Positions 18,165 to 35,898 of a stretch of 64,000 nucleotides of DNA are shown in pieces (position 1 is the stretch's first letter; every line of letters starts with the position of its first letter). The position numbers and the translations under genes are program-made. The stretch lies in the NCBI RefSeq assembly GCF_010993735.1, contig NZ_WQNI01000005.1:64501-128500 (forward strand), read 5' to 3'. The notes under the pieces are model-generated. The model did not search any database. It was not told the DNA's origin and saw only the letters and a list, made by a program, of their open reading frames with translations. The DNA comes from Chelativorans alearensis. GTDB lineage: Bacteria; Pseudomonadota; Alphaproteobacteria; Rhizobiales; Rhizobiaceae.

Positions 18165-19997
18165 TCAGCCGAGCGGTCGCATGAGGAGAGAAATCCGTCC
18201 GGCTTTCTGCGGTTTCGCGAGAGCGAAGATGACGCGGGTCAGGTCGACGGAGGGCGCATATTGCTTTTCCACATCGCGATGCCGCTCCAGCCGTACCGAC
18301 ACGCTTTCCGGGTCGAAGGACACCTCCAGACCCCCTTCCCCCGCGCGCATGACGACGGTGCCGCCGCGGATCTCTGCGTCGCCGGTGGTCACCAGCACGC
18401 TCTCGAAAGATCGGCCCCCGTCCTCGAAGACGAAATCGTCGGTGAGCGTGACCTCCCCGCCTGGCATGCGGCGGTCGACCTCCAGCGTCCTGTGCAGCGA
18501 GGCGAGCCCCGCCTCGACGGGATAAGCGGCGGTCATGTCGAGGAGCAGGCGGTCACCGGTGGCATCGTGGCGGTGCTCGACCACGCGCGCCGCGAAGGCC
18601 ATGCCGGGCTGCTGGAGATGCCCGTCGACCACCGGCACGGAATGCCCGCGCGATGAGGTCATCAGGTTCTCGTAGCGCTCGGCCCCGAAATACGCCTTCG
18701 AATAGCGCCCGCGCCCCGGATCGGTGACCACGGCACGGCCGCGTGTCATGACGATCAGCGAGCCGACGTCGTTCTGGTTGTGCATCTCCGCGTTGTGGCC
18801 GCCCTTGACGGCCACCTTGAGGGAAGCCGGGTCGGCGGGATCGAGGCGCGAGATCATCCACGCCATATCGGGAAACCAGTCGTGCGCACCGCCGCCGAAA
18901 TGCGTTGCACCATCCGGCAGCGGCCAGAGATATTGCCGAAGCGGCCAGGCGAACTGGTTGAAGTGATCGACGGTAAAGTCGTTGGCAACGCCCATCTGCG
19001 CCAGATCGGGCAGGGCGAGGCGCTCCGCCAGATAGGCGAGCAGGCCGGGATGGAAGGTGGCCTGAAGGTCGGAATCGGAGAAGCTCGCCCATTGCCCGGG
19101 TGCAAGTATCGTACGCAACGGAAACTGGGCGATCTCGCGCACGAAAAGGTCCTCCAGGAGGCGCACGGCGCCACCGGTGCGCACCTCCACGAGATGGGCG
19201 AGGGCGACGAAATTGCCGAAGCCGTAGCTCCAGTAATCGGGCCCTTCCGTGGAGCCGCCGCGCGCATCGAAAGTATCGAGATAGTCGGCGAGCGAGGCCA
19301 TGGCGCGGGCGATGATCTCGGCCAGACGCGCCCGGTCCGGCTCCAGATAGCAGGCCGCCCCCGCTGAGCCGGCCACACACACAGCGGTCCAGTTGTTCAC
19401 CGGCCTGTCCGGCGTCGAATGCAGCCACCAATGGTCGTGCCGGTGGAGGAATGGCGATACGGCACGCCGGTCGACCTCGCTGCGGATGCGCGCGCGCAGG
19501 TTCTCGTCCAGCCGGTTGCCGATGAGATAGTCGACCTCGGCCAGATCCAGCGCCGTCATCGCGGCGGCGAGATCGAGGGTTGGGCGGTCGGGCGCATCGA
19601 GGGTGCGGGCGTGGGCAGGCCAGGCCCAGTTGGTCTCCTCCAGCCGCGCCGAGAGGATATCGCAGATCGCGTCGAGGAAGCTTCCCTCCCATGTCAGGCA
19701 CTCGGCGAGAACGAGGCGGTAGAGCATGCTGCGCCGCCGCCGCTGGGCGTCCTCATAGGGTTCGCGCCGGCCGGTGCGCTGGAAATCGAGATAGAGGCTC
19801 GCTGGCAGCGCGGGAATCGGCGCAGTCGCGTCCTCGCCTGCCCGCACCCGGAGCAAGGCGACGTTTTCCTCTCCCACCCGCGCAGCGATGGCTGCCCAGC
19901 CCTTGCGGTCGGCACCCGGTGCGAAGGGCGTGAACACGCCTGTCTGCGCCAGGGCGGCATCGACGCGGCGCACGTTCCAAAGCCGAAGCGAGGACAT
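18165..19997 (-). CDS. Heparinase II/III-like polysaccharide lyase
   Basis: A 610-residue protein with the two-domain layout of heparinase II/III lyases, which cleave uronic-acid-containing polysaccharides by beta-elimination. The N-terminal helical toroid contains NNWTAVCVAG (about 201-210) and EGPDYWSYGFGNF (about 251-263), candidate Asn and Tyr catalytic positions. The C-terminal beta domain opens with GGHNAEMHNQNDVGS (H401, H406, D410), the histidine-rich signature of the family. No signal peptide is seen, so it probably acts in the cytoplasm on imported oligosaccharide. Candidate operators C and D precede it. The exact substrate is unknown. Confidence 0.85.
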   Translation of the reverse strand: MSSLRLWNVRRVDAALAQTGVFTPFAPGADRKGWAAIAARVGEENVALLRVRAGEDATAPIPALPASLYLDFQRTGRREPYEDAQRRRRSMLYRLVLAECLTWEGSFLDAICDILSARLEETNWAWPAHARTLDAPDRPTLDLAAAMTALDLAEVDYLIGNRLDENLRARIRSEVDRRAVSPFLHRHDHWWLHSTPDRPVNNWTAVCVAGSAGAACYLEPDRARLAEIIARAMASLADYLDTFDARGGSTEGPDYWSYGFGNFVALAHLVEVRTGGAVRLLEDLFVREIAQFPLRTILAPGQWASFSDSDLQATFHPGLLAYLAERLALPDLAQMGVANDFTVDHFNQFAWPLRQYLWPLPDGATHFGGGAHDWFPDMAWMISRLDPADPASLKVAVKGGHNAEMHNQNDVGSLIVMTRGRAVVTDPGRGRYSKAYFGAERYENLMTSSRGHSVPVVDGHLQQPGMAFAARVVEHRHDATGDRLLLDMTAAYPVEAGLASLHRTLEVDRRMPGGEVTLTDDFVFEDGGRSFESVLVTTGDAEIRGGTVVMRAGEGGLEVSFDPESVSVRLERHRDVEKQYAPSVDLTRVIFALAKPQKAGRISLLMRPLG

Positions 19998-20036
19998 CTT
20001 GTCTCCTTCCGTTCGGGCGCGAGATTATGAGACCAA

Positions 20037-20064
20037 GCACAATTTGCAATAACGCAAATTTTGC
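20037..20064. promoter_or_regulatory. Candidate LacI operators C and D upstream of the lyase
   Basis: Two related sites lie 40-67 bases before the lyase start: GCACAATTTGC (20037-20047) and the perfect palindrome GCAAATTTTGC (20054-20064). Both match the core repeated elsewhere in the island, and their position suits promoter blocking. Confidence 0.5.
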
Positions 20065-20115
20065 AATCAACGACTGCGTAGCTGGAGATATCGAGCCGGC
20101 TTGAAAGCAAGCTCC

Positions 20116-21126
20116 CTACGAGCCCACGTGCCGGATCGTCTGCCCCTCCACCGGCGTGACGCCGATCTCCAGCTGCTGCACGGCGGTCTCGCCTTCCATC
20201 TGCCGGATGAGCAGGCGGATGGCGCCGCGGCCGATGGCCTCGCGGTCGACGCGCATCGTCGATAGCCGAGGGCTCGTCATTGCGGCGAGCGGCAGGTCGT
20301 CGAAGCCGACGATGGAGAAGGTCTCCGGAAGCACGCCGCTACCGCCATGCAGCCCCTCGATGATCTCGACGGCGGCGAGATCGTTCCAGGAGAAAAGCGC
20401 CGTCACGCCGTAGCGATCGGCAAGGATGTCCTGGGCCAGCTCGCCAGGGCTGCGCTCGCCGGTGCTCAGCACCACGGCCTCCGCATCGGCGGTTGCGGCC
20501 ATGGCGGTCTCGAAGCCGCGGCGGCGCTCGAGAATGGTCGGCCGCAGGCCGTGCGTATAGTGCAGGATGCGGCGGTGGCCGGCGTCCAGCAGGCGCTGCG
20601 TGGCGAGATGGGCGCCGTAGAAATTGGCGGGCGCGACAGAGCTCAATCGCATCAAGGGATCGGTGCCGTTGACCAGCACGGTGGGAACGGCTTTCTCGAC
20701 GCACCAGGAGACCAGCCCTTCCCAGGCATCGATGCCCGCCAAAAGCACACCATTAGCTTCCGACTGCGTGAGATGACGTTCGATGAGTTCGAGGGGCACC
20801 TGGGCTTCGTTCACCAACCGTACGTCGAGCGCCAACCCCGCCTCCTCGGCCGCCGCGCGCATGCCCTCGGCGATGCCCACATAGAAACCGGACATGCCGC
20901 TGGTGGCGCCGCCCAGCGGCACCAACGCGACGGCTCGCCGGTCGAGATTGACGACGCCGGTGTGCTTGCTCTTGTAGCCGAGCGCGCGGGCGACCTTGTG
21001 CACGTCGCGCCGCACCGTCTCGCTGACCCCCGCCTCGTTGGTGAGCGCCCGCGACACGGTGCTCACCGACACGCCCAGACGGGCCGCGATATCGGCCTGG
21101 TTGGGGCGCCGGGGGGTTATGGTCAT
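20116..21126 (-). CDS. LacI family transcriptional regulator
   Basis: A 336-residue repressor-type regulator. The N-terminal helix-turn-helix (about residues 9-30, NQADIAARLGVSVSTVSRAL) and hinge (VARALGYKSKH) precede a periplasmic-binding-protein-like sensor domain ending in the VDREAIGRGAIRLL dimer region. It lies between the FAH-family gene and the lyase. Related palindromes occur upstream of itself, the lyase and the binding protein, so it probably controls the island and itself. The effector is likely a breakdown product of the imported oligosaccharide; this is inference. Confidence 0.93.
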   Translation of the reverse strand: MTITPRRPNQADIAARLGVSVSTVSRALTNEAGVSETVRRDVHKVARALGYKSKHTGVVNLDRRAVALVPLGGATSGMSGFYVGIAEGMRAAAEEAGLALDVRLVNEAQVPLELIERHLTQSEANGVLLAGIDAWEGLVSWCVEKAVPTVLVNGTDPLMRLSSVAPANFYGAHLATQRLLDAGHRRILHYTHGLRPTILERRRGFETAMAATADAEAVVLSTGERSPGELAQDILADRYGVTALFSWNDLAAVEIIEGLHGGSGVLPETFSIVGFDDLPLAAMTSPRLSTMRVDREAIGRGAIRLLIRQMEGETAVQQLEIGVTPVEGQTIRHVGS

Positions 21127-21164
21127 GGGTGCTCCGCCTCGTGCAAAGGAGGTTTTCCCCTCTT

Positions 21165-21179
21165 ACGCAAGTTTTGCGT
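21165..21179. promoter_or_regulatory. Candidate LacI operator E upstream of the regulator gene
   Basis: ACGCAAGTTTTGCGT is a perfect inverted repeat of 6-base arms with a GTT centre, about 40 bases before the regulator's ATG, suggesting autoregulation. A GGAGG ribosome site is not seen here; the leader instead holds the plus-strand AAAGGAGG complement. Confidence 0.55.
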
Positions 21180-21227
21180 TTTTTGAAAGCGGGAATGCGG
21201 CTGGCGAAGCGCGGGTGGTTTTACTCC

Positions 21228-22385
21228 TCACAAAAGGCCGCGCCCGGCGAGGTTGCGCATGAGGGCGGCGGTGCCGAAGGTCCATTCGGGGCATTCGGTG
21301 GACAGGCGAACCGTATTGACGAGCCGGCCCAGATGCCGCTCCGAGATGGTGACCACATCGCCATTCTTGTGCGTAAACCCCTGTCCCGGCGCATCGCGGT
21401 CCTCGACCGGGGCGAAGAGCGTTCCCAGGAACAGGACGAAGCCGTCGGGATACTGGTGATGCCGGCCGATGGTCTGGGAGACCAGGTCGAGCGGGTCGCG
21501 GCTGATCTCGCTCATGGAGCTTTGGCCCTTGAGCACGAAGCCGTCCTCGCCCTCGACACCGAGTTCCAGCTCCGCGGCGCGCACGTCTTTGATGCCATAG
21601 CTGCGGTCGAAGAGACGAATGAAAGGACCGATGGCGCAGGAAGCGTTGTTGTCCTTTGCCTTGCCGAGAAGCAGGGCGGAGCGGCCTTCCACGTCGCGCA
21701 GGTTCACATCGTTGCCGAGCGTGGCCCCTTTCACAACGCCTCGGCTGTCGACGGCCAGCACCACCTCCGGCTCGGGGTTGTTCCAATGCGAGACCGGGTG
21801 CAGACCGACGGCCGCGCCCCAGCCGACCGCCGACATGGGTTGGCCTTTCGTGAAGACCTCGGCATCAGGTCCGATACCGACCTCGAGATATTGCGACCAC
21901 ACACCCTCCTCCATGAGGGCCTGCTTCACGCGCTCGGCCTCGGGCGAGCCCGGCACGAGGCTCTGGAGGCTCGTGCCGATGATGGCACCCGCCCGCTCCC
22001 GGATCGCCGCCGCCTTGGCGGGATCGCCGGCGGCCTTCTCCTCGATGACGCGCTCGATCATCGAACGCGCGAAGGTGACGCCGCACGCCTTTACGGCCTG
22101 CAAGTCGCACGGGGCGAGGAGGTGAAGGCGGTCGGCCGCGCCTTTTCCTTCGGCCGACATCTGGGCGATCTCCTCCAGCGAGCCGAGATCCTCGCCTTCG
22201 GCACCGCCCACGAGGGAAGCCGGGTCGTCGAACTCCATCACGTCGCGCATCGTCGGGGTCGCGCGCGACGTGATGTCGACCAGCCGCCCCTCGCGCAGCA
22301 CCACCAGCGCCGGCCCCTGCACATCCGGCCGCCACACCCGCCCGACAAACAGGCCCCGCTCCATCTCGTCCCGCTCGATAATCAT
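21228..22385 (-). CDS. Fumarylacetoacetate hydrolase (FAH) family protein
   Basis: A 385-residue enzyme with the FAH fold in its C-terminal two thirds. Metal-binding residues are visible in HWNNPEPEVVL (E-x-E) and TLGNDVNLRDVEGR (D). FAH relatives in sugar-acid clusters act as dehydratases or hydrolases on 2-keto-3-deoxy acids, which fits a pathway fed by uronate-type oligosaccharides; the exact reaction is not determined. It is the first minus-strand gene of the island and diverges from the TIM-barrel gene at 22592. Confidence 0.85.
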   Translation of the reverse strand: MIIERDEMERGLFVGRVWRPDVQGPALVVLREGRLVDITSRATPTMRDVMEFDDPASLVGGAEGEDLGSLEEIAQMSAEGKGAADRLHLLAPCDLQAVKACGVTFARSMIERVIEEKAAGDPAKAAAIRERAGAIIGTSLQSLVPGSPEAERVKQALMEEGVWSQYLEVGIGPDAEVFTKGQPMSAVGWGAAVGLHPVSHWNNPEPEVVLAVDSRGVVKGATLGNDVNLRDVEGRSALLLGKAKDNNASCAIGPFIRLFDRSYGIKDVRAAELELGVEGEDGFVLKGQSSMSEISRDPLDLVSQTIGRHHQYPDGFVLFLGTLFAPVEDRDAPGQGFTHKNGDVVTISERHLGRLVNTVRLSTECPEWTFGTAALMRNLAGRGLL

Positions 22386-22516
22386 CGCCTCGCCTCTTCT
22401 CCAGGAATCGCACTTCGCGAGACCTTAGAGCAGGACGTGCCTGGATGGAATCGGCCAGGTGGAATCGGAAGGAGCATGAACGCCCGACCGCACCGATTTC
22501 CGTGAAATGTCTTCCA

Positions 22517-22532
22517 TTGTCAGACCACTGAC
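22517..22532. promoter_or_regulatory. Candidate GntR/FadR-type operator
   Basis: TGTCAGACCACTGACA (22518-22533) is an inverted repeat in the divergent promoter region. Its complement contains TGGTCTGACAA, which fits the FadR-subfamily consensus TNGTNNNACNA used by many sugar-acid regulators. No GntR gene is present in the window, so the binder would be encoded elsewhere. Confidence 0.4.
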
Positions 22533-22591
22533 ACATACGCTGATCAATCTCCGCGACAATGTAGCTGCGCCTGAAGAGAAGGAGCAAGAAG

Positions 22592-23521
22592 GTGCTGTCG
22601 AACGGGATCACGGGAACCGGCATTTCCGCGCGCAAGCGCGCCAACGACCTCAGCGATTTCGCCGATGAACTCAACGCAATCGAGGAGCTCGGCGTCGAGG
22701 CGGTCGAACTCCCGCTCTTCGACATGGACGTCGTGGTTGGTGGCCGCATCCGCAAGGCGCAGCTCGATGCCCTCAAACATGCCTGCGCCGGGCGCAAGCT
22801 CGTCTACTCGGTGCACGGTCCCCTTTCCATCAACTTCATGGACGAAGCCTGGCGCCTGCCGCGTCATCTGGAAGTGCTGGAGGCCTCCGTCGAGGCCAGT
22901 GCGGCGATTGGGGCCGAGCACTATGTCGTCCATTCGGGCCTGGTCCGCGCGCAACAGGCCGCAAGCATCGAGGCGGCGTACGGGCGGCAGCGCGAATGGC
23001 TGTCGCGGGCCGGAGACATCGCCGCCGGCCACGGCCTGATCCTCTGCGTCGAAACGCTCTTCGGAGGCTACGACGGGCAGGTTCATGCCTCCTCCCCGGC
23101 GCGGCTGGCGACCGAATTGACCGCTATCGACCATCCCAACGTGCTCGCCACGCTCGACTTCAGCCATGCTTATCTGAAGCTCGATTTCGACGGCCGCCGG
23201 GAGGACTTCCTCGACGAGATCAAGGCGCTCGCCCCCTGGGCGCGCCATCTGCACATCCACGACAGCTTCGGCCGCCAGGACGACATATGGATGTTCACCG
23301 AAGGCGAGCGCCTCGCCTATGGGCACGGCGATCTGCATCTGCCGGTGGGGTGGGGCGACATTCCGTGGGAGGCGATCGTAGCCGAGTGCCGTTTCCCGCA
23401 AGGGGTGCTGTTCAACATCGAGTTGAAGGAGCGCTACTGGTACGCCGCGCGGGAGACCGTCGAGGCCACCAAGGCGCTCGCTGCCGCGGCCCGGACATTC
23501 AAGCGGGCGCGGGCGGCATAG
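22592..23521 (+). CDS. Sugar phosphate isomerase/epimerase family TIM barrel protein
   Basis: A 309-residue protein of the xylose isomerase-like TIM barrel/AP endonuclease 2 family. Probable metal and substrate ligands are H in YSVHGPL, H in VVHSG, E in LCVETLFGG, D and H in TLDFSHAY, H in HLHIHDSFG, and E in FNIELKERYW. The start codon is GTG, chosen because a GAAGGAG site lies seven bases before it. It is the only plus-strand gene of the carbohydrate island and diverges from the FAH-family gene, so the two may share regulation. The substrate is unknown. Confidence 0.85.
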   Translation: MLSNGITGTGISARKRANDLSDFADELNAIEELGVEAVELPLFDMDVVVGGRIRKAQLDALKHACAGRKLVYSVHGPLSINFMDEAWRLPRHLEVLEASVEASAAIGAEHYVVHSGLVRAQQAASIEAAYGRQREWLSRAGDIAAGHGLILCVETLFGGYDGQVHASSPARLATELTAIDHPNVLATLDFSHAYLKLDFDGRREDFLDEIKALAPWARHLHIHDSFGRQDDIWMFTEGERLAYGHGDLHLPVGWGDIPWEAIVAECRFPQGVLFNIELKERYWYAARETVEATKALAAAARTFKRARAA

Positions 23522-23537: not shown

Positions 23538-24452
23538 TCAGGTCAGCACGTGCATTGCCTTGACGGCAGCCGAGGCACGGTTCTCGACGCCCAGCTTCAC
23601 GTAAATCTGCTCGAGATGCTTGTTCACCGTGCGTGGGCTCAGCTTCAGGACGTCGGCGATGTCGCGGTTGGTTTTGCCTCGGGCAATCCACACCAGCACT
23701 TCGCTTTCCCGGAGCGTCAGGCCGAAATGCTGGCGCAGCGTCTCCTCTTCCTTGGCGCCGCCCTGGGAGACTAGGCGGAAGAGATGCTCGTCAGGGGCGA
23801 TCATGCCGAGACACACGAGTTGCAGATCGCTCGAATCGGCAAGCCTCAGCGTCAGGCTTTCGCCGGTGAGCGCCGCCGGGTCGCGCCCGCCGAACCATTG
23901 ACGCATCCGCTCTTGAAGCGCCGTAAGCACTCCCTCGCCGGCCTCAGGCGCGTTGAGGAGCCTGTTCGCCTGCGGCGTCGACCAATGCACCTCACCCGTC
24001 GACGACAGTGCGATCAGATGCCTTCCCGCCGCATCCAGCGCCACACGCGCGCTCTGCGTGCGCCGCGCATTGGCCAGATGCACGCGCATGCGCGCACGCA
24101 TCTCCTCCAGGTTGATGGGTTTGGTAAGGTAGTCCACGCCGCCCGATTCCAGCGCGTGCACCACGTGTTCGGTCTCCGTCAGTGCTGTCATGAAGATAAC
24201 CGGGACATGCGCCGTGCCCGGCAGCGCCTTGAGCCGGCGGCACGTCTCGAAGCCGTCGAGGCCGGGCATCATGGCATCCATGAGCACGACGTCCGGTGTC
24301 ACCTTCCCGGCGATGCTCAAGGCTGCCTCGCCGCTGGTGGAAACCAGCACGGTGATGCCCTCCTCTTCCAGCGCACGCGTAAGGAAGCCCAGCGCCTCGG
24401 GTGAATCATCGACGACCAGAACGATCTCCCCTTCCGGGATTACGTCACTCAT
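23538..24452 (-). CDS. Response regulator with LuxR-type DNA-binding domain
   Basis: A 304-residue two-component regulator. The N-terminal receiver (about 10-125) has the acidic pair in VLVVDDS, the phospho-acceptor D59 (VVLMDAMMPG) and a lysine in YLTKPI. A middle segment of about 100 residues looks like a degenerate PAS-like linker. The C-terminal LuxR/NarL helix-turn-helix (about 235-300) reads LTLRESEVLVWIARGKTN. The gene overlaps the hybrid kinase gene by eight bases, so the kinase at 24445-27804 is almost certainly its partner. The target is plausibly the adjacent urea uptake and urease genes. Confidence 0.92.
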   Translation of the reverse strand: MSDVIPEGEIVLVVDDSPEALGFLTRALEEEGITVLVSTSGEAALSIAGKVTPDVVLMDAMMPGLDGFETCRRLKALPGTAHVPVIFMTALTETEHVVHALESGGVDYLTKPINLEEMRARMRVHLANARRTQSARVALDAAGRHLIALSSTGEVHWSTPQANRLLNAPEAGEGVLTALQERMRQWFGGRDPAALTGESLTLRLADSSDLQLVCLGMIAPDEHLFRLVSQGGAKEEETLRQHFGLTLRESEVLVWIARGKTNRDIADVLKLSPRTVNKHLEQIYVKLGVENRASAAVKAMHVLT

Positions 24453-27400
24453 GCTCGCTCACGCTTTCCAGAAGCTTGGTGTAGCCGGCAAAGTCGTAGA
24501 CTTCCATATGCGCCCTCAAACGCTCGACCAATGGTGTGTTCTCGGGCGTGGCCCCAAGCTCCGTCAGCTTGCGGTCGATGCCGCGCACATGGCCGATCTT
24601 GCCGAGGCTCAGAAGCTCACGCACATGGCCCGCGCCGGGTGAGCAGAGCCCATTGCCCTCGGCGGCAGGCACCGGCGTCTCCACCCCCTCGATCCATTCG
24701 AGCCGTAGTTGTGCGGCGATCTTTTCGAGCAGTTGGCGCAGGCCGAAGGGCTTTGCCAGGGCGTCGTTGTGACCGGCGTCGCGGTTGGTCTTGGCGATGT
24801 CATCACCAATATTGGCCGACAGCATGACGATGGGGGCGGAGAAGCCCTTCTCGCGCAGCCGCTCGACCAGCTCCCAGCCCGTCATGCCGGGCATGAGAAT
24901 GTCGACGAAAACGAGGTCCGGCCGCGCGCTTTCGATCATCGTCAGGCAGTCCGGTCCGTCGACGGCGGTAAACACCGTGAAGTCGAGCGGCTGCAGCATC
25001 TGCCGCATCATCTCGCGGTGCTCGGCATTATCGTCCACCACCATGACCGTACGGCGCGCGCCTCTGTAGCCCTTGACGATGAGATCCTGCGCGGCGAAAG
25101 CCGCCGGCCGGTCGACCTTGGCGAGCATCAGGCGCACCTGGAAGGTCGAACCCACTCCCGGGGCGCTTTCGACCGTGATTTCGCCCCCCAGCGTCTCCGT
25201 CAGGAGCCTGGTGATGGTGAGGCCGAGGCCAAGCCCCGGTGACAGGCGGTTGCGCTCGGCCGGGCCGCGCACGAAGGGCTCGAAGACATGTTCCAGATCG
25301 CTCTCGCCGATGCCGGGGCCGCTGTCGGCGACCCGGAAGGTGGCCACCTCCGAACGGTAGCCGACCGTGAAGTCGACATGGCCGCTGTCGGTGAACTTGA
25401 TGGCGTTGGAAAGAAGGTTGACGAGGATTTGCCTCAGCCGCTTCTCGTCCGTACGCACATATTGCGGCAGGCCCGGATCGCGCTTGTGCTGGAAGGCCAA
25501 CCCCTTAGCCTCGGCCTGCAGGCGGAACATGCCGACGATCTGGTCGAGGAAATCGTACAGGTTGATCTCGTTGGAATAGACCTGCAGCCGCCCCGTCTCG
25601 ATCTTTGAGATGTCGAGCAGGCCATCGATCAGGCCCGACAGATGCTCGGCGCTGCGCCGAATGACGCTGATCGAGGAGCGCCAGGGAGCGGGCGCCGCCG
25701 CCTCCCGCTCCAATATCTGAGCGTAACCCAGGACGGCGTTGAGCGGCGTGCGCAGCTCATGCGAAAGACCGACGACATAGCGGCTCTTGGCCCGATTGGC
25801 CGCTTCCGCCTTCTCCTTGGCCATCTGCAATGCGGCATCGGTCTTCCGGTGCGCCGAGATTTCCCTCAGGAGAAGCGTGTTCTGCCGCGCACTCTCCTCC
25901 TCGGCTATCCTGCGGCTGTCGTGCGCGAGCACCAGGAACCAGGCGACGATGCCGGCGACCACCGAGAAGGCGAAAAAGACCACGAGGATCGTTCCGCCCA
26001 CCACATCCGCCGTCTCCGGCGCGACCTTCGTGGCGAAGGAGTAGACCAGTGCCAGGATGGCGCCGAGGAGCGCCACGGCAAACACCATCGCCATGCCGAA
26101 CTTGCCGAGCCGCGTCTGCAACTTTTCCACCGCCAGGGCCGGCAGCAGGCTCTCTGCAAGGGTCATGGCCTGCGCCCTGGCATTGGCCTTAGGCTTGCAC
26201 AGATCGTGGCAGCGCGCATCGAGCGAGCAGCACAGCGAGCATATCGGCGCGGCGTAGGCCGGGCACCAGGCCATGTCCTCCGGCTCGAACGGGTGCTCGC
26301 AGATGGAGCAGGTGATCGCTCCCTTGCCGGCCCAGGCCCTGCGCGGCTTGCGCGCCAGATAGTATTTGCCGCCGGTAGCATAGGCGATGGCCGGGGCTGC
26401 GATGAAGGCCGTCACGAGAGCGATATAGGGAGCAAGCGCCGCGGCCATCTGGCCGAAGGCGCCGAAATGCGCCGCGAGCGCGATACCCGCCGAAAGTGAC
26501 ATGGAGCCGAGGCCGACGGGGTTGATGTCGTAGAGATGCGCGCGCTTGAACTCGATGCCGGGCGGGGCAAGCCCCAGCGGCTTGTTGACGAAGAGATCGG
26601 CCGAGACCGTGCACAGCCACGCCATGGCGACGATGGAGAAGATGGCGAGGGTCGCTTCCAGAAGCCGGTATATGCCGAGCTCCATCAGGAGGAGCGCGAT
26701 AGCGACGTTGAAGACCAGCCAGACCACGCGGCCGGGGTGGCTGTGGGTGAGGCGCGAGAAGAAATTCGACCAGGCGAGCGAGCCCGCATAGGCGTTCATC
26801 ACATTGATCTTGAGCTGCGAGACGACGACGAAGATCGCCATCAACACCAGCGCCAGGGTTTCGTTGGGGATCATATAGCCGAATGCCGCGGCATACATCT
26901 CCGCCGGTTCCGACGCATGCTCGGGCGCAACGCCGGTCGAAAGCACCAGAACGGCAAGGAACGAGCCCGCCAGAAGCTTTGGCGCGCCGACCAGCACCCA
27001 GCCGGGGCCGGCGAGAAAGACGCCAAGGCGGTAACGCTTACGCTTTTCGCCATCGGCCGGCAGGAAGCGCAGGAAATCGACCTGCTCGCCGATCTGCGTC
27101 ATCAGTGCCAGGATGACGGCCGACGCCGCGCCGAACTTCGCCACCTCCAGCGCGGAGATACTGCCCGGCACCTCGTGGATACCGGGGAAGGCGCGCCACA
27201 GGTCGAACTTCTCCCAATCGAGCCAGGCGATGAAGAGGAAGGGCAGGATGTTGAGCACGATCCAGACAGGCTGGGTGAGAAGCTGGAAGCGGCTGATAAG
27301 CTTCACCCCGTGGGTGACCAGCGGGATCACCACCACGGCACTGATGATGTAGCCGATCCATGGCGGAATGCCGAAGGCGAGCCTGAGCGCGCCTGTCATG

Positions 27401-27804
27401 ATCGAGGCCTCGATGGCAAAGAGGATGAAGGTGAAGCTCGCATAGACCAGCGAGGTGACGGTCGAGCCTATATAGCCGAAACCCGCACCGCGCGTCAGAA
27501 GATCGATGTCGAGGCCGTGGCGTGTGGCATAACGCGAGATCGGCACGCCGACCGCCAGGATGGCGATACTGGCGACGACGATGGCGGCGATCGCATTGGC
27601 GGTGCCGTAGGAGAGCGTGATCGCCCCGCCGATCGCCTCCAGCGCCAGAAAGGAAATGGCGCCGATGGCCGTTTGCGAGATGCGCTGGCTGGAAAAGCGC
27701 CGGGCGCTCTTCGCCGTGAAGCGCAGCGCATAGTCCTCCAGCGTCTGGTTGGCGACCCAGCGGTTATATTCGCGCCTGATAGGAAGAATCCGCTGCCGCG
27801 CCAT
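24445..27804 (-). CDS. Hybrid histidine kinase with an N-terminal NCS1-like permease sensor
   Basis: An 1119-residue inner-membrane hybrid kinase. Residues about 40-490 form a polytopic module resembling the NCS1 nucleobase/cation symporters (cytosine permease type). Residues 499-536 hold eight cysteines (C499, C502, C514, C522, C525, C526, C532, C536), a probable metal-binding module. Two helices follow (about 570-630), then a coiled coil. The kinase core has phospho-accepting H682 (SHELRTP), the N-box NLLSNAIKFT, and glycine boxes DSGPGIG and GLGLGL. The receiver (about 918-1035) has D968 and K1018. A short tail has no recognised domain. It is divergent from urtA, so it probably senses urea or a related nitrogen compound; the ligand is inferred. 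Confidence 0.88.
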   Translation of the reverse strand: MARQRILPIRREYNRWVANQTLEDYALRFTAKSARRFSSQRISQTAIGAISFLALEAIGGAITLSYGTANAIAAIVVASIAILAVGVPISRYATRHGLDIDLLTRGAGFGYIGSTVTSLVYASFTFILFAIEASIMTGALRLAFGIPPWIGYIISAVVVIPLVTHGVKLISRFQLLTQPVWIVLNILPFLFIAWLDWEKFDLWRAFPGIHEVPGSISALEVAKFGAASAVILALMTQIGEQVDFLRFLPADGEKRKRYRLGVFLAGPGWVLVGAPKLLAGSFLAVLVLSTGVAPEHASEPAEMYAAAFGYMIPNETLALVLMAIFVVVSQLKINVMNAYAGSLAWSNFFSRLTHSHPGRVVWLVFNVAIALLLMELGIYRLLEATLAIFSIVAMAWLCTVSADLFVNKPLGLAPPGIEFKRAHLYDINPVGLGSMSLSAGIALAAHFGAFGQMAAALAPYIALVTAFIAAPAIAYATGGKYYLARKPRRAWAGKGAITCSICEHPFEPEDMAWCPAYAAPICSLCCSLDARCHDLCKPKANARAQAMTLAESLLPALAVEKLQTRLGKFGMAMVFAVALLGAILALVYSFATKVAPETADVVGGTILVVFFAFSVVAGIVAWFLVLAHDSRRIAEEESARQNTLLLREISAHRKTDAALQMAKEKAEAANRAKSRYVVGLSHELRTPLNAVLGYAQILEREAAAPAPWRSSISVIRRSAEHLSGLIDGLLDISKIETGRLQVYSNEINLYDFLDQIVGMFRLQAEAKGLAFQHKRDPGLPQYVRTDEKRLRQILVNLLSNAIKFTDSGHVDFTVGYRSEVATFRVADSGPGIGESDLEHVFEPFVRGPAERNRLSPGLGLGLTITRLLTETLGGEITVESAPGVGSTFQVRLMLAKVDRPAAFAAQDLIVKGYRGARRTVMVVDDNAEHREMMRQMLQPLDFTVFTAVDGPDCLTMIESARPDLVFVDILMPGMTGWELVERLREKGFSAPIVMLSANIGDDIAKTNRDAGHNDALAKPFGLRQLLEKIAAQLRLEWIEGVETPVPAAEGNGLCSPGAGHVRELLSLGKIGHVRGIDRKLTELGATPENTPLVERLRAHMEVYDFAGYTKLLESVSEHE

Positions 27805-28127
27805 TGCCTTGTTCTAACGTCCCCCTGTGGCAACCCTTGAGCCGGCGCGCCTTCTTTACCTGTTCAACTATGGTGCCGGCGTGGGGCCGCTTGCCCCCTG
27901 GCCCACCCTAGATGACTACTTTTTCATCAATTCTGCAATATGCCAAAAAATTGTGCGCTTCTCTTCCAGCCGGGAACGCCGCGGAAACCGGGTCTTTCGC
28001 GCCCGGAGCAACCCTCCCCGCCGGTTCACCTACGTTGTTCGACGTATAGGAGGCGTGTGCTCATGATTGCAAACTTCCCCCGGCCCGACCTTTCGGCCCA
28101 ATCGATCTTTCGCAGGGGAACATCAAG
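27805..28127. other. Divergent promoter region between the hybrid kinase and urtA
   Basis: About 320 bases. AT-rich patches near 27915-27960 suggest promoters, and an AGGGGAAC ribosome site precedes urtA. I looked for a sigma-54 element (GG-N10-GC) and found none that fits. No RNA gene or riboswitch-like fold was recognised. Confidence 0.5.
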
Positions 28128-29423
28128 ATGAGCACCAGATTTACCCGCCGCGCGGTTCTCGCAGCGGCTCTCGCCGGCTCCGTGAGCCTTTCCGCAGGCA
28201 TCTCTTACGCACAGGAGGAGACCATCAAGGTCGGCGTCCTGCATTCGCTCTCGGGCACCATGGCGATCTCCGAGACGACGCTGAAGGACACGATGCTCTT
28301 CCTCATCGACGAGCAGAACAAGAAGGGCGGGCTTCTCGGCAAGAAGCTCGAGGCGGTCGTCGTCGACCCCGCCTCCGACTGGCCGCTCTTCGCCGAGAAG
28401 GCGCGTGAGTTGATTTCCGTCGACGAGGTTGCTGCCGTGTTCGGCTGCTGGACGTCGGTCAGCCGCAAGTCCGTCCTCCCGGTCTTCGAGGAGCTGAACT
28501 CGATCCTCTTCTACCCCGTTCAGTACGAGGGCGAGGAGAGCCAGCGCAACGTCTTCTACACGGGTGCGGCCCCCAACCAGCAGGCCATCCCCGCCGTCGA
28601 CTACCTGATGAACGAGGAAGGCGTGGAGCGTTGGGTGCTGGCGGGCACGGACTACGTCTACCCGCGCACGACCAACAAGATCCTCGAGCAATACCTGATG
28701 GATAAGGGTGTGGCCGCCGAGGACATCATGATCAATTACACGCCCTTCAGCCATTCCGATTGGCAGACGATCGTCTCCGATATCAAGGCCTTCGGCTCGG
28801 CGGGCAAGAAGACGGCGGTGGTCTCCACCATCAACGGTGACGCCAATGTGCCGTTCTACAAGGAGCTCGCCAACCAAGGTATCGCGGCGGAAGACATCCC
28901 CGTCGTCGCCTTCTCGGTCGGCGAGGAGGAGCTTGCCGGCATCGACACGGAGCCGCTGGTGGGGCATCTGGCCGCCTGGAACTACTTCCAGTCCGTCGAC
29001 ACGCCAGAGAACGAGGAGTTCATCGCCAAGTGGCGCGAGTTCATCGGCGACGAGGACCGCGTGACCAACGATCCGATGGAAGCCCATGTGGTCGGTTTCA
29101 ACCTGTGGGTCCAGGCGGTCGAGAAGGCCGGCACGACCGACACCGATGCGGTGCTCGACGCCATCATCGGGCTGGAAACGCCGAACCTTACCGGCGGCAT
29201 CGCCAAGATGCTCCCGAACCACCACATCACCAAGCCGGTGTTGATCGGCGAGATCCAGGACGACGGCCAGTTCGAGGTGGTGTGGGAGACGGAAGAGGTG
29301 GTGCCGGGTGACGCCTGGTCGGACTTCCTGCCCGAATCGAAGATGATCGAGGCGGATTGGACCGCGCCGATCAGCTGCGGAAACTACAACACCGAGACGA
29401 AGAGCTGCGGTGGGGCGAGCTGA
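28128..29423 (+). CDS. urtA: Urea ABC transporter substrate-binding protein
   Basis: A 431-residue periplasmic binding protein for urea, of the branched-chain amino acid (Leu/Ile/Val) binding type. The N-terminus has a twin-arginine signal (FTRRAVL) followed by a hydrophobic stretch ending ISYAQ. The mature start TIKVGVLHSLSGTMAI and the VFGCWTSVSRKSVLPVFE and NPIQYEGEES-like VQYEGEESQRN segments are characteristic of UrtA. It is followed by a strong hairpin and then urtB, as is usual for ABC operons that make excess binding protein. Confidence 0.96.
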   Translation: MSTRFTRRAVLAAALAGSVSLSAGISYAQEETIKVGVLHSLSGTMAISETTLKDTMLFLIDEQNKKGGLLGKKLEAVVVDPASDWPLFAEKARELISVDEVAAVFGCWTSVSRKSVLPVFEELNSILFYPVQYEGEESQRNVFYTGAAPNQQAIPAVDYLMNEEGVERWVLAGTDYVYPRTTNKILEQYLMDKGVAAEDIMINYTPFSHSDWQTIVSDIKAFGSAGKKTAVVSTINGDANVPFYKELANQGIAAEDIPVVAFSVGEEELAGIDTEPLVGHLAAWNYFQSVDTPENEEFIAKWREFIGDEDRVTNDPMEAHVVGFNLWVQAVEKAGTTDTDAVLDAIIGLETPNLTGGIAKMLPNHHITKPVLIGEIQDDGQFEVVWETEEVVPGDAWSDFLPESKMIEADWTAPISCGNYNTETKSCGGAS

Positions 29424-29429
29424 CCGGCC

Positions 29430-29453
29430 GGGGCGCGGCGAAGGCCGCGCCCC
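29430..29453 (+). other. Intercistronic hairpin between urtA and urtB
   Basis: A perfect 10-bp stem (GGGGCGCGGC/GCCGCGCCCC) with the tetraloop GAAG begins six bases after the urtA stop. There is no T-tract, so it is more likely an mRNA-protecting or partially attenuating structure than a full terminator. Confidence 0.6.
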
Positions 29454-29538
29454 TTCACGCCCCCTCTGGCCTGACGGCCATCTCCCGCGAGGGGTGCGAA
29501 AGAGCAAAAGCATCCCCGCAGCGGTGGATACCAAGACG

Positions 29539-31155
29539 ATGCACCCGACCCGTCTCATCTCGAAGCTCCTCATCGCGCTTGCGCTATTGATTGCAGTAGC
29601 ACCCGGCGCCTTCGCCCAAGATGTCGAATCCCTCGTCAGCGCCCTGCCCGAGGGCGACTATTCGGACCGCGAGAAGGTGATTTTCGATCTCGCCGCCACC
29701 GGCGACGAACGCGTGGCGGGGCTGCTCAACGCACTGGGCGAAGGCGACCTCTACGTGCGTGAAGAAGATGGCCGCGTGATCGTTGGCAAGCGCTCAGGCC
29801 GCAACTATACGCTGACCGACGCGCTCACCGGCGAAGAGCTGGGCACCGCCCCTTCCTCTGCGCTGGAAAAAATCCGCGTCAACAACCGGCTGCGCCGCGC
29901 TGTCCGCAGCGCCATCGGGCAACTGACGTTGATGAGCCCCAGCCCCTCGGTGCGCCTCAGGGCCGCGCGCAGCCTCTTGAGAAACGCCGATCCCGATTCC
30001 CTGGAACTATTGGACACGGCACTCGCCGCCGAAACAGACCCGCAGGTGAAGACGATGATGGAGACGGCCCGTGCCGGCATCATCGTCAAGACAGATGCCG
30101 GCATCGAGGAGAAGGTGGCCGCCATCGACCTCCTTGCCGCGCGGGGAGACCGCGAAGCGCTGGCGATGCTGACGGGCGCGCGCTCCTCCGCCGCGCCCGA
30201 GCTTCAGCCGGTCATCGAACGCGGCATCGCCGGCATCGAGCGCGAGCTTGCCATGTGGGACGGATTGCAGAACGTCTGGTACGGGCTGTCGCTCGGCTCC
30301 GTGCTCCTTCTGGCGGCCATCGGCCTTGCCATCACCTTCGGCGTGATGGGTGTCATCAACATGGCCCATGGCGAGATCGTCATGCTGGGCGCCTACACCA
30401 CTTTCGCGGTGCAGCAGGTGATCCGCACCTCCTTCCCCGGCCTTTTCGACTATTCGCTGGCCATCGCCCTGCCCCTCGCTTTCCTGGTCACGGCGCTCGT
30501 CGGCATCGCCATCGAGCGCGGCATCATCCGCTGGCTCTACGGCAGGCCGCTCGAAACACTGCTTGCCACCTGGGGCCTCAGCCTGATCCTGCAGCAGACC
30601 GTGCGCACCATCTTCGGCCCCAACAACCGCGAGGTCGGGAACCCTTCCTGGATGTCCGGCGCCTTCGATCTCGCCGGCCTGTCGATCACCTGGAACCGGC
30701 TGTGGATCATCGTCTTCGCGCTCGTGGTCTTCGCCGTCCTCCTCGCCGTACTCAACCGCACGCCGCTTGGCCTGCAGATGCGCGCTGTGACCCAGAACCG
30801 TCGCATGGCCTCTTCCATGGGCATCCGCACCCCCTGGGTAGACGCCATGACCTTCGGTCTTGGCTCCGGCATCGCCGGCATGGCGGGCGTCGCGCTCTCG
30901 CAGATCGACAACGTCTCGCCCAATCTCGGCCAGAGCTACATCATCGACAGCTTCATGGTTGTCGTCTTCGGCGGTGTCGGTAACCTGTGGGGCACGCTGG
31001 TGGGGGCGCTGACGCTGGGCGTTGCCAACAAGTTCCTGGAGCCTTACGCCGGCGCCGTGCTCGCCAAGATTTTCATTCTCGTCTTCATCATTCTCTTCAT
31101 CCAGCGGCGCCCGCGCGGATTGTTCGCGCTCAAGGGCCGGGCGGTGGACGCATGA
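29539..31155 (+). CDS. urtB: Urea ABC transporter permease UrtB
   Basis: A 538-residue permease. A signal-like segment (1-25, ending APGAFAQ) and a helical, HEAT-like periplasmic region of about 200 residues precede the LivH-type membrane domain of about eight helices. The long N-terminal extension is normal for UrtB and distinguishes it from LivH. Conserved motifs include GVINMAHGE and FGGVGNLWGT. I start at MHPTRLISK because it gives a clean signal sequence; an upstream in-frame extension would be proline/arginine-rich noise. Its stop overlaps the urtC start (ATGA). Confidence 0.95.
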   Translation: MHPTRLISKLLIALALLIAVAPGAFAQDVESLVSALPEGDYSDREKVIFDLAATGDERVAGLLNALGEGDLYVREEDGRVIVGKRSGRNYTLTDALTGEELGTAPSSALEKIRVNNRLRRAVRSAIGQLTLMSPSPSVRLRAARSLLRNADPDSLELLDTALAAETDPQVKTMMETARAGIIVKTDAGIEEKVAAIDLLAARGDREALAMLTGARSSAAPELQPVIERGIAGIERELAMWDGLQNVWYGLSLGSVLLLAAIGLAITFGVMGVINMAHGEIVMLGAYTTFAVQQVIRTSFPGLFDYSLAIALPLAFLVTALVGIAIERGIIRWLYGRPLETLLATWGLSLILQQTVRTIFGPNNREVGNPSWMSGAFDLAGLSITWNRLWIIVFALVVFAVLLAVLNRTPLGLQMRAVTQNRRMASSMGIRTPWVDAMTFGLGSGIAGMAGVALSQIDNVSPNLGQSYIIDSFMVVVFGGVGNLWGTLVGALTLGVANKFLEPYAGAVLAKIFILVFIILFIQRRPRGLFALKGRAVDA

Positions 31156-32312
31156 TCACGAAAACGCTCCTGCGCGCCTTCGATGGCAAGGCCATATGGG
31201 TGGTGGCGATCCTCATCGCGATCGCCGTCGCCGTGCCTGCCTCCAACCTCTATCTGCCCGTCGGCCACCCGCTGCGCGTGCCCAATCACTTCGTGCCGCT
31301 GCTCGGAAAATACCTCACTTACGCCATGCTGGCGTTGGCGCTCGACCTAGTCTGGGGCTACTGCGGCATCCTCTCCCTCGGCCACGGGGCCTTCTTCGCC
31401 TTCGGCGGCTACGCCATGGGCATGTACCTCATGCGCCAGATCGGCGACCGCGGCGTCTATGCCAACCCCGTCCTGCCCGATTTCATGGTGTTCCTGAACT
31501 ATCAGGAACTGCCGTGGTTCTGGTACGGCTTCGACATGTTCTGGTTCGCCGCCATCATGGTCGTGCTCGTGCCGGGGGTGCTCGCCTTCGTCTTCGGCTG
31601 GTTCGCCTTCCGCTCCCGCGTGACGGGCGTCTATCTCTCCATCATCACCCAGGCGATGACCTACGCGCTGCTCCTGGCCTTCTTCCGCAACGACATGGGC
31701 TTCGGCGGCAACAACGGCCTGACAGACTTCAAGGACATCCTCGGCGCGCCCCTCCAGGCAGGCTCGACGCGGGCCGCCCTCTTCGCCGCCTCGGCCATTG
31801 CCCTGGCGCTGTCCTTCATCGTCTGCTCGGCCATCGTGCGCTCGAAACTCGGCAAGGTGCTGGTCGCCGTGCGCGATGCGGAAAGCCGCACACGCTTCCT
31901 CGGCTACCGCGTCGACAACTACAAGCTCTTCGCCTTCACCGCCTCGGCCGTCATCGCCGGCATCGCCGGCGCACTCTACGTGCCACAGGTGGGCATCATC
32001 AATCCGGGCGAGTTCGCGCCGGCCAACTCCATCGAGATCGTCATCTGGACCGCCGTCGGTGGGCGCGGGACGCTCATCGGACCGATCGTCGGCGCGGTAC
32101 TGGTGAACGCAGGTAAGTCCTGGTTCACCGGGGTCTTCCCCGAGTTCTGGCTGTTCGCTCTGGGCGGGCTCTTCGTCGCCGTCACGCTGTTCTTGCCCAA
32201 GGGTATCGTCGGTGCGCTGGCGCAGGGATGGACGGCTCTGAAGGCGCAGCGCGTTTCAGCGCAGGCGGAGGACGGCAGCGATGCCGCGCCCGAACCCTCG
32301 CCAGCGGAGTAG
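31152..32312 (+). CDS. urtC: Urea ABC transporter permease UrtC
   Basis: A 386-residue LivM-type permease. Characteristic segments are WGYCGILSLGHGAFFAFGGYAMGMYLM, shown here as its parts WGYCGILSLGHGAFF and GGYAMGMYLM, then RDAESRTRFLGY and VGGRGTLIGPIVGA. The start is the ATG overlapping the urtB stop by four bases. It pairs with UrtB to form the membrane channel for urea import. Confidence 0.95.
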   Translation: MITKTLLRAFDGKAIWVVAILIAIAVAVPASNLYLPVGHPLRVPNHFVPLLGKYLTYAMLALALDLVWGYCGILSLGHGAFFAFGGYAMGMYLMRQIGDRGVYANPVLPDFMVFLNYQELPWFWYGFDMFWFAAIMVVLVPGVLAFVFGWFAFRSRVTGVYLSIITQAMTYALLLAFFRNDMGFGGNNGLTDFKDILGAPLQAGSTRAALFAASAIALALSFIVCSAIVRSKLGKVLVAVRDAESRTRFLGYRVDNYKLFAFTASAVIAGIAGALYVPQVGIINPGEFAPANSIEIVIWTAVGGRGTLIGPIVGAVLVNAGKSWFTGVFPEFWLFALGGLFVAVTLFLPKGIVGALAQGWTALKAQRVSAQAEDGSDAAPEPSPAE

Positions 32313-32321
32313 GTGTCGTCC

Positions 32322-33071
32322 ATGGATCAGAACCATCCCCCTCTCCTCTATCTCGACGGCGTCTCCGTCTCCTTCGACGGTTTCAAGGCCATCAACAACC
32401 TGTCGCTGATCGTCCAGCACGGCGAGCTCCAGGCCATCATCGGCCCCAACGGCGCCGGCAAGACGACCATGATGGACATCATAACCGGCAAGACACGGCC
32501 GGACGAGGGCGAGGTCTTCTTCGCCGGCGATGTGGACCTAACGCGGCTCGACGAGGCGGCCATAGCCGAACTGGGGATCGGCCGGAAATTCCAGAAACCC
32601 ACCGTCTTCGAAAGCCACACGGTGTGGGACAATCTGGAACTAGCGCTCAAGAAGCCGCGCGACGTCTTCTCCGCCTGGTTCTACCACCCCTCCAAAGAAG
32701 ACGTGGGGCGCCTGGAAGACATCCTCGCCACCATCCGGCTGACGGAGCGCCGCGAGGAACGCGCCGCGAACCTCAGCCACGGGCAGAAGCAATGGCTGGA
32801 GATCGGCATGCTGCTCGCCCAGGACCCGAAGCTGCTCCTCGTCGACGAGCCGGTGGCCGGCATGACCGATGCCGAGACGGTGGAAACGGCGAAGCTTCTG
32901 AGGGAGATCGCCAAGTCCCGCTCAGTCGTCGTGATCGAGCATGACATGAGCTTCATCCGTGATCTTGCCGCGCGCGTTACCGTGCTGGCCGAGGGATCCG
33001 TGCTGGCCCAGGGCAGCCTCGACCACGTGAGCGCCGACCCGCGCGTCATCGAAAGCTATCTGGGGAGGTGA
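32322..33071 (+). CDS. urtD: Urea ABC transporter ATPase UrtD
   Basis: A 249-residue LivG-type ATPase. Walker A is GPNGAGKTTMMD, the signature is LSHGQKQWLEIG, and Walker B is KLLLVDEPVAGM. The LSHGQ variant with a tryptophan is typical of UrtD. I start at the ATG at 32322, with AGGTG about six bases upstream; a GTG three codons earlier is possible. It is followed at once by urtE. Confidence 0.94.
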   Translation: MDQNHPPLLYLDGVSVSFDGFKAINNLSLIVQHGELQAIIGPNGAGKTTMMDIITGKTRPDEGEVFFAGDVDLTRLDEAAIAELGIGRKFQKPTVFESHTVWDNLELALKKPRDVFSAWFYHPSKEDVGRLEDILATIRLTERREERAANLSHGQKQWLEIGMLLAQDPKLLLVDEPVAGMTDAETVETAKLLREIAKSRSVVVIEHDMSFIRDLAARVTVLAEGSVLAQGSLDHVSADPRVIESYLGR

Positions 33072-33073
33072 GG

Positions 33074-33778
33074 ATGGCAACGGCACTCGCCGTCGACGGG
33101 ATCGATCTTTACTACGGCGCCGCGCGGGCGCTGAAATCGGTGAGCGTGGAAGCCGCCCCCGCCGCCATCACCGCTGTCCTCGGCCGCAACGGGGTGGGAA
33201 AGTCCTCGCTGCTCAGGGCTATCGCCGGCGTTCACCCGATCTCCAGGGGCGAGATCCGCTTCGACGGCGCCGCACTCGGCAAGACCCCACCCTACAAGCG
33301 CGCCCGCCTCGGCCTCGGCTACGTGCCGCAGGGTCGTGAGATCTTCCCGCTTCTGACGGTGCGGGAGAACCTGCAGACAGGCTTCGCGCCGCTGAAGGCG
33401 GGCGAACGCTTTGTTCCCGACACGGTCTTCACCCTCTTTCCGGTGCTGAAAGAGATGCTTTCCCGGCGGGGCGGCGACCTGTCCGGTGGCCAGCAGCAAC
33501 AGCTGGCCATCGGCAGGGCGCTGGTGACACGGCCCAAGGTGCTGATCCTCGACGAGCCGACGGAGGGCATCCAGCCTTCCATCATCAAGGACATCGGCCG
33601 GGCACTGCAATTCCTGCGCGACGAGCTGGGCATGACGATCCTGCTGGTGGAACAGTATCTCGACTTCTGCCGCGAACTGGCCGACAGTATCTACGTCATG
33701 GACCGGGGCGAAATCCTCCATTCCGGGCCGGCATCCGATCTCGATAAGCCGGAAGTAAAGCGGCATTTGATGGTTTAG
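33074..33778 (+). CDS. urtE: Urea ABC transporter ATPase UrtE
   Basis: A 234-residue LivF-type ATPase. Walker A is GRNGVGKSSLLR, the signature is LSGGQQQQLAIG, and Walker B is KVLILDEPTEGI. A GGGGAGGTGAGG ribosome site overlaps the urtD end and supports the ATG at 33074. It completes the urea importer and is followed 24 bases later by ureD, so import and hydrolysis are probably co-transcribed. Confidence 0.95.
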   Translation: MATALAVDGIDLYYGAARALKSVSVEAAPAAITAVLGRNGVGKSSLLRAIAGVHPISRGEIRFDGAALGKTPPYKRARLGLGYVPQGREIFPLLTVRENLQTGFAPLKAGERFVPDTVFTLFPVLKEMLSRRGGDLSGGQQQQLAIGRALVTRPKVLILDEPTEGIQPSIIKDIGRALQFLRDELGMTILLVEQYLDFCRELADSIYVMDRGEILHSGPASDLDKPEVKRHLMV

Positions 33779-34976: not shown

Positions 34977-35567
34977 ATGTTCAAACGTATCGCATTCGCC
35001 GCCGCGGCACTTTTCTCCGCCACCGCGCCCGCCTTCGCACACCTGAACCCGGCCGAGCACGGCTCCTTCATGGCCGGCTTCTCGCATCCGCTTTTCGGCC
35101 TCGACCATATTCTGGTGATGGTGGCCGTCGGCTTGTGGGCGGCAACGCTCGGGCAGCGCGCGCTGATGCTGGTGCCGGCCGCCTTCGTCGGCACGATGGC
35201 CCTCGGCTTCGCCGCCGCCCTTCTCGGCGCGCCGCTGCCGCTGGTGGAGCCGGTGATCCTCGCTTCCGCGGTCTTTGTCGGACTCATGGTAGCGCTTGCC
35301 ATTCCGTTGCCCCTAGCGGGTGTTGCCGGCGTCGTCGCCTTCTTCGCCTTCTTTCACGGCCATGCCCATGGCGGCGAGCTCGGCACCGCGGGCGCGCTTC
35401 CGTTCGCCGCCGGCTTCGCCCTCGCCACCGTGCTCCTGCATACCGCCGGTATCGCGGCGGGCCTCGCCTTCGGCCACCGGCAGAACGACGTCACAGGTGG
35501 CACACTGACCCGCATCGCAGGCCTAGCCACGGCGCTGGCGGGTCTGTGGCTGGCCTTCGCCGGCTGA
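34977..35567 (+). CDS. ureJ: HupE/UreJ family nickel-associated membrane protein
   Basis: A 196-residue membrane protein with a signal-like N-terminus (ending PAFAH) and about six helices. The two family signatures are present: [12 protein letters not shown] near the N-terminus and [11 protein letters not shown] in the middle, both rich in candidate metal ligands. HupE/UreJ proteins are linked to nickel uptake. Its place between ureA and ureB is a known rhizobial arrangement and supports nickel supply for this urease. Confidence 0.93.
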
Positions 35568-35592
35568 CAACTCGAAAAGGAATCAATTTCTC

Positions 35593-35897: not shown

Positions 35898-35898
<1 letters not shown>
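35593..35898 (+). CDS. ureB: Urease beta subunit
   Basis: The 101-residue beta subunit, opening MIPGEVIT, with the family block [13 protein letters not shown] and [13 protein letters not shown]. It overlaps ureC by one base (TGATG), giving translational coupling of the two structural subunits. Confidence 0.97.

Follow-up and report, generated by a model that had tools for sequence, protein, structure and literature searches.

A hybrid sensor histidine kinase with a permease as its input domain lies beside the urea uptake and urease genes of Chelativorans alearensis, and control of the urt genes by this kinase system is strongly supported. The kinase gene was found in a stretch of 64,000 nucleotides, referred to here as the window, in which all positions are numbered. 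A permease-fold sensor, a cognate regulator and a dyad upstream of urtA are best explained by a urea transceptor kinase that activates urt and ure expression, an explanation which is probably correct and in which urea is the presumed ligand.

The kinase, 1119 amino acids long, is encoded on the minus strand (24445-27804) by an ORF that has an ATG start and no internal stops, and its assignment is based on this ORF, on Pfam matches to HisKA, HATPase and REC domains and on full-length homologues. Pfam and motif searches place the HisKA domain at residues 673-738 (25591-25788, minus strand) with His682 as the expected acceptor, the HATPase_c domain at residues 785-894 (25123-25452, minus strand), and the receiver domain (Response_reg) at residues 920-1029 (24718-25047, minus strand) with Asp968 as the expected acceptor. 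The H-, N- and G-boxes and the receiver motifs are all intact. Pfam recognised no HPt domain in the hybrid kinase, no PAS domain in its main form, and nothing above the cut-off in its first 650 residues. Conservation of the kinase spans its full length in relatives, and the domain also occurs on plasmids recorded from three proteobacterial classes (alpha, beta and gamma), so that the architecture is not due to chance. The adjacent gene (23538-24452, minus strand) encodes a LuxR-type response regulator with receiver and GerE domains, identified from the ORF, Pfam and motifs, and its ATG overlaps the TGA of the kinase gene by 8 nt. With its HisKA, HATPase and REC domains, its catalytic motifs and the adjacent regulator, the protein belongs to the hybrid histidine kinases that work with a LuxR-type regulator. 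An earlier note on this DNA, made from the sequence by a model, described a permease-like module followed directly by kinase and receiver domains. The ORF, Pfam and fold analyses bear out this order, but "directly" overlooked an eight-cysteine module and two additional helices located between permease and kinase.

The kinase gene and urtA are divergent and separated by an intergenic stretch of 323 bp, so that the divergence and the regulator overlap reported in the note both hold. The plus strand carries urtA, encoding the binding protein of the urea ABC transporter (28128-29423; TIGR03407, 565.7 bits against a cut-off of 492.75), the permease gene urtB (29410-31155, ORF start uncertain; TIGR03409 above cut-off), the permease gene urtC (31152-32312, start inferred from ORF 30987-32312), the ATPase genes urtD (32313-33071; TIGR03411 above cut-off) and urtE (33068-33778; TIGR03410 above cut-off), ureD (33803-34630; PF01774) and, further on, ureC for the urease alpha subunit (35898-37607; TIGR01792, 981.7 bits). 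UrtA, UrtB, UrtD, UrtE and UreC pass NCBIfam equivalog cut-offs, which with the adjacent urease identifies a UrtABCDE operon, while UrtC was identified from its use as a tblastn query and from synteny. The gene order is urtABCDE, ureD, ureA, a UreJ-like gene and then the remaining urease genes. The urease operon (34977-39723) is interrupted by this HupE/UreJ gene between ureA and ureB, and a LysE-type gene, a redoxin gene and a 196-amino-acid ORF without a Pfam match lie between ureC and ureE. Behind the regulator gene (18165-23521) are genes for a xylose-isomerase-like TIM barrel, a fumarylacetoacetate-hydrolase-like protein, a LacI regulator and a heparinase II/III-like protein, a set that looks like an unrelated sugar catabolic cluster.

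The permease domain covers about residues 40-480 (26365-27687, minus strand). The AF2 model of the sensor is of moderate confidence (pLDDT 75.5, pTM 0.77) and has a LeuT-type fold whose best PDB matches are the NCS1 structures Mhp1 and CodB, which on this model places the domain with NCS1. The designation NCS1-like in the earlier note was thus right, based on these fold matches and on a stand-alone Klebsiella homologue of 41% identity, though the domain is invisible to Pfam. The NCS1 family PF02133 has no match in the sensor region of the window at E up to 10 and none in the whole genome, and neither the SSF (SLC5) family nor any other transporter family was matched at E up to 0.1 with the whole kinase or up to 10 with the first 650 residues. 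A stand-alone homologue at locus L223 likewise has no PF02133 match at 1e-3, whereas the Klebsiella homologue passes (37.7 bits against a cut-off of 23.5). Because PF02133 misses the sensor and the L223 protein but accepts the Klebsiella protein, the domain is described, as far as the model allows, as a divergent relative of NCS1 rather than one of its canonical members.

Likeness to CodB and Mhp1 (PF02133) extends from the fold to the glycine of the TM1 break (G48, aligned with CodB G29) and the TM8 asparagine (N334, aligned with CodB N280). Other positions differ. In CodB the base is reported to be partnered by two aromatic residues conserved across NCS1, Trp108 and Phe204 (PMC9379551). Trp108 aligns with Leu128, a position occupied by Phe in 86 of 166 rows, and Phe204 aligns with Leu234, which is Leu in 161 of the 166, and the base-stacking pair is therefore lost from the permease domain. 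The Na2-site residues Thr278 and Thr279 of CodB align with the invariant Lys332 and the near-invariant Ile333; judged from this alignment, Lys and Ile in place of the two hydroxyls argue against Na+ coupling. Residues Q237, E240, D243, R246, Q330, K332, N334 and N337 are invariant in 166 of 166 rows. The domain differs further from CodB and Mhp1 in being fused to signalling domains and in having its own C-terminal cysteine module.

This module, delimited from alignments, occupies residues 485-558 (26131-26352, minus strand) and contains cysteines at positions 499, 502, 514, 522, 525, 526, 532 and 536. All eight are invariant in a 23-row alignment and present in 86 of 86 urea-labelled and 65 of 65 amide-labelled rows (151 in total). 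No Pfam family matched the module above cut-off and no clear fold was recognised, the fold search giving weak zinc-finger-like matches; the spacing of the cysteines suggests that the module may bind metal. The start of the module is found on the stand-alone permeases of Klebsiella and locus L224, and all eight cysteines on that of L223, indicating that the module follows the permease subfamily and not the kinase. Two further long helices are predicted at about residues 565-630 (25915-26112, minus strand; AF2 helices 565-594 and 596-649). They perhaps form a transmembrane hairpin that continues as the dimerisation helix, their membrane insertion having been judged by eye from the sequence.

Linkage of the kinase to genes for urea or amide utilization was surveyed in several samples. 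Among 61 genomes (C. alearensis and 60 relatives), strong kinase matches were found in 20, at 24 places. In the 22 neighbourhoods fetched around these matches, which leave out the window itself and one match at a contig end, the regulator gene is adjacent to the kinase gene in all 22 and a urt-like operon is divergent in 21. A scan of named genomes gave the best 80 of 590 confirmed loci. A further 42 neighbourhoods came from a sample of 398 genomes of the window's phylum, and 16 from 369 genomes sampled within the class to which G079 belongs. In the phylum sample 54 genomes match the sensor region, though in two of them (G253 and G295) the match is a stand-alone protein of 26% identity or a fragment. 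A hybrid kinase is present in 157 of the 163 loci scored, which are partly redundant, four pairs of sensors being identical copies. The markers were urt, ure or fmdA/ami genes, scored by tblastn (E 1e-10, more than 34% identity) at any position of the fetched stretch, which measured about 5-20 kb, or 64 kb for the window. By this measure 149 of the 157 hybrid-kinase loci have marker genes, as do 61 of the 68 that remain after thinning at 84% identity. The earlier note would have been refuted if the same kinase lay beside unrelated operons in most genomes; this was checked, and the reading of unrelated neighbours was rejected on these linkage counts.

The 149 linked loci consist of 86 of the urea type, with a urtA like that of the window and urease, and 63 of the amide type, whose urt-like genes form a different set (38-55% identity to those of the window) and which go with the formamidase FmdA; none has both kinds of marker. 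FmdA is found in 56 of the 63 amide-type loci, sometimes together with AmiF or AmiE, and urease without urt genes in the stretch is found at the urea loci L187 and L199-L201. C. alearensis has one system of each type, as a second kinase gene (L045, G000:C1:538636-541752) stands opposite a urt-like set of its own, behind which lies FmdA. The L045 stretch (G000:C1:530200-550100) comprises a formamide-type kinase, a regulator, a urt-like operon and fmdA, and lacks the dyad core described below. On a tree of 77 sensors the urea and amide labels require at least five changes by parsimony, some branches behind these changes being poorly supported. None of 500 shuffles gave so low a number for either label, and the labels thus follow the tree far better than chance. 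A search for residues that separate urea- from amide-linked sensors in parallel lineages yielded none that was convincing and four weak positions. Plasmid records with the domain number 533, of which 342 are from Klebsiella, and the Klebsiella plasmid copy of the kinase that was examined (L048, NZ_CP124699.1) is divergent from urtABCDE and a formamidase gene. In Sinorhizobium meliloti 1021 a copy on pSymB (L047) is likewise divergent from urtA.

Comparison of the kinase-urtA intergenic regions revealed a shared TACGT-N6-ACGTA dyad, which in the window is TACGTTGTTCGACGTA (28031-28046), a candidate operator for the response regulator. The exact core TACGY-N6-RCGTA is found in 102 of 126 such regions (58 of 64 urea-type and 44 of 62 amide-type) and, after thinning, in 12 of 16 urea-type and 21 of 36 amide-type regions. 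Elsewhere in the same loci it has 10 matches in 2,363,586 bases, and first-order Markov controls contain it in 4 of 6300 sequences. Seven of these 10 outside matches (L171, L172, L174, L178, L181, L182 and L230) are placed 88-116 bp upstream of a match to the FmdA start, suggesting that separately placed formamidase genes bear the same element. Since shared ancestry is the main caveat on conservation of the dyad, a presence control was run with the urtA orthologues (70-83% identical) of relatives that lack a kinase match at E 1e-100, 19 of 40 such genomes having one. Within about 1.5 kb upstream of urtA the core is present in 14 of 15 kinase-bearing relatives, a set in which the window and L025 are near-identical, versus none of the 19 kinase-lacking ones (Fisher p 1e-8). 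The core occurs seven times in the C. alearensis genome, once before urtA. It is missing from 24 of the 126 intergenic regions, among them those of five of six formamide-type loci of the window's relatives, L045 included, and of several urea-type loci that belong to other classes than the window (L177, L180, L185, L234 and L235). The stretches of the urease-only loci have no core either. Formamide-type lineages that lack the dyad may use another site. A second short conserved stretch, TGACTACTTTTT (27913-27924), lies near the kinase start in close relatives (7 of 38 short urea-type intergenic regions) and is possibly the kinase promoter.

The same permease also occurs without the kinase. A stand-alone copy ends the ureDABCEFG operon in Klebsiella (L049, NZ_CP129771.1 398968-416512; WP_002916878.1) and at L224. 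These proteins are 40-43% identical to the sensor along the permease and into the first part of the cysteine module. From the sensor they differ in having no kinase and a shortened cysteine tail. The Klebsiella protein is annotated as a cytosine permease; its place and its relatives suggest urea rather than cytosine. With it as the query, both L223 and L224 were retrieved. At L223 (5437-14645) the kinase and regulator genes are divergent from a stand-alone permease gene, which is followed by genes for FmdA (NF045496, 798 bits) and an aliphatic amidase, amiE (NF009802, 714 bits), and a TACGTCGGATGACGTA dyad lies between kinase and permease. The stand-alone permease occupies the place usually held by urtABCDE, and no urt genes are present in the stretch. 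Of all the evidence, this substitution hints most strongly that the small amides imported by the regulated transporter are also handled by the fold. L223 has in effect a natural pair of sensor and transporter of one fold.

Other proteins carry the permease head on different outputs. It is joined to plain HisKA-HATPase kinases at L228, L195 and L197, the stretches of the latter two containing FmdA matches, to a kinase with two PAS matches, HisKA, HATPase and REC at L226, and to PAS-GGDEF-EAL domains at L225 (7149-10820, minus strand), where its domains make the protein a candidate c-di-GMP enzyme whose input has a transporter fold. No marker genes were found in the stretches of L225, L226 and L228, and a RuBisCO gene lies near L225.

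Architecture, NCS1-type fold, conserved linkage, and the dyad with its co-occurrence with the kinase were established by computation, and the model of signalling proposed here starts from them. Urea would bind to, or pass through, the permease domain and thereby change its conformation. The change would be relayed through the cysteine module and the hairpin into the dimerisation helix, resulting in autophosphorylation at His682. The kinase would then phosphorylate the LuxR-type regulator, whose gene overlaps that of the kinase, either directly or via its own receiver domain, a route that is presumptive as the hybrid has no HPt match. The regulator would bind the dyad at 28031-28046 and activate urtABCDE and the urease genes that follow. 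The steps from the kinase onward are drawn from knowledge of the family, and both regulator binding to the dyad and activation as the direction of control are presumed. A formamide-type counterpart, which comprises urt-like genes and fmdA, is present elsewhere in the C. alearensis genome and in many other lineages. Counting against the model are the intergenic regions and urease-only stretches that lack the core, the fusions at L225, L226 and L228 with no marker genes nearby, the failure to find a convincing residue that separates urea- from amide-linked sensors, the missing HPt match and the moderate confidence of the AF2 model.

It is possible, though rather unlikely, that the system controls urt and ure with the permease as a mere anchor or modulator, the signal being read in the cytoplasm, by the cysteine module as a metal or redox signal, or through contact with UrtA or UrtBC. 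CbrA provides a precedent, as its SLC5 domain is reported not to be essential for signal perception, from which it follows that the sensing part of such a kinase may be other than its permease head; in CbrA, signalling may be separable from transport (PMC9100948; see also PMC13022988). The cysteines, invariant in all 151 urea and amide rows, fit the same reading, and a metal signal would suit a nickel enzyme such as urease. Against such a role stand the many permease residues invariant in 166 of 166 rows and the stand-alone occurrence of the same permease in urease and amidase operons. The presence of the cysteine tail, in part or in full, on stand-alone permeases ties it to the permease subfamily, and L223, where the kinase is paired with a stand-alone permease in the absence of urt genes, indicates that UrtA is not an obligatory local partner.

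Alternatively, the domain could respond to general nitrogen status or ammonium instead of urea and amides themselves. Nitrogen-scavenging genes are what the marker neighbours are, yet they are specifically urea and formamide/acetamide genes, and the stand-alone relatives examined sit in urease and amidase operons, making this option improbable. Still harder to credit is a sensor of purines, pyrimidines or allantoin, with urea as the end product of the pathway, despite the fact that known NCS1 transporters have ligands of this kind (PMC13390362). Leu or Phe and Leu at the positions of the CodB aromatic pair (PMC9379551) speak against it, as do the formamidase-linked relatives, since the formamide type points to small amides. 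A purine or allantoin sensor as first choice was rejected on how the aromatic pair aligns in the 166 rows, and such ligands are disfavoured. The proposal in the earlier note of a transporter-based sensor for urea or a urea precursor such as a purine or allantoin is accordingly supported in its tie to urea uptake and not supported for the other two ligands. Urea sensing through the permease fold is the reading preferred here.

A broader proposal, which is about as likely to be right as wrong, is that the small-amide NCS1-type permease, the eight-cysteine module and the hairpin together form a hitherto undescribed membrane input module, one that is portable and uses transceptor logic to report urea or formamide. 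The module would serve at least four outputs, namely hybrid kinases coupled to LuxR-type regulators, plain kinases, a hybrid kinase with PAS and a c-di-GMP protein of the PAS-GGDEF-EAL type. The lysine at the Na2 site would have made a sodium-free, possibly uncoupled receptor from a urea/amide transporter, and the preference for formamide or urea would have switched at least five times. If the transceptor reading of the kinase is right, many proteobacteria possess a membrane sensor devoted to urea or formamide, for which an operator and a regulon are predicted, and the few known kinase transceptors gain a second transporter family. The repeated switches between formamide and urea, the L223 arrangement and the swapped outputs make it directly testable whether such sensing occurs by binding or by transport.

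Gene clusters of the formamide type have been reported before. A urt-like cluster beside acetamidase/formamidase genes was described for Bradyrhizobium, where amides were already suggested as substrates of the urt-like transporter (PMC3098086), and for Pseudomonas veronii (PMC13209695), and UrtABC/AmiF occurs on plasmids of Klebsiella ST307 (PMC5506382, PMC13060141). In the available text of these four papers the divergent kinase is not mentioned; neither "kinase" nor "two-component" appears in that of PMC5506382 and PMC13060141, nor "kinase" in that of PMC3098086. In the open-access literature as available, neither a kinase with an NCS1 head nor a urea transceptor was found described, consistent with the earlier description of the system as undescribed, but the principle of joining a transporter to a kinase is known from CbrA, CrbS and RpuS.

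These SLC5/STAC kinases resemble the kinase of C. alearensis in that the N-terminal part of a histidine kinase is a transporter domain (PMC13022988, PMC9100948, PMC5715377). CrbS and RpuS are, in addition, hybrid kinases with a LuxR-type regulator, and CrbR recognises an imperfect palindrome in its target promoters that is comparable to the dyad, although the motif itself differs from TACGY-N6-RCGTA (same sources). The kinase described here has an NCS1-type permease where CbrA, CrbS and RpuS have an SLC5 domain, the eight-cysteine module where they have STAC, and, in its main form, no PAS match, and it is associated with urea and formamide genes instead of genes for histidine, acetate or pyruvate. 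By analogy, it may work like the SLC5/STAC transceptors, with which it shares the fusion of a transporter fold to a kinase, but it is not filed as a member of that group.
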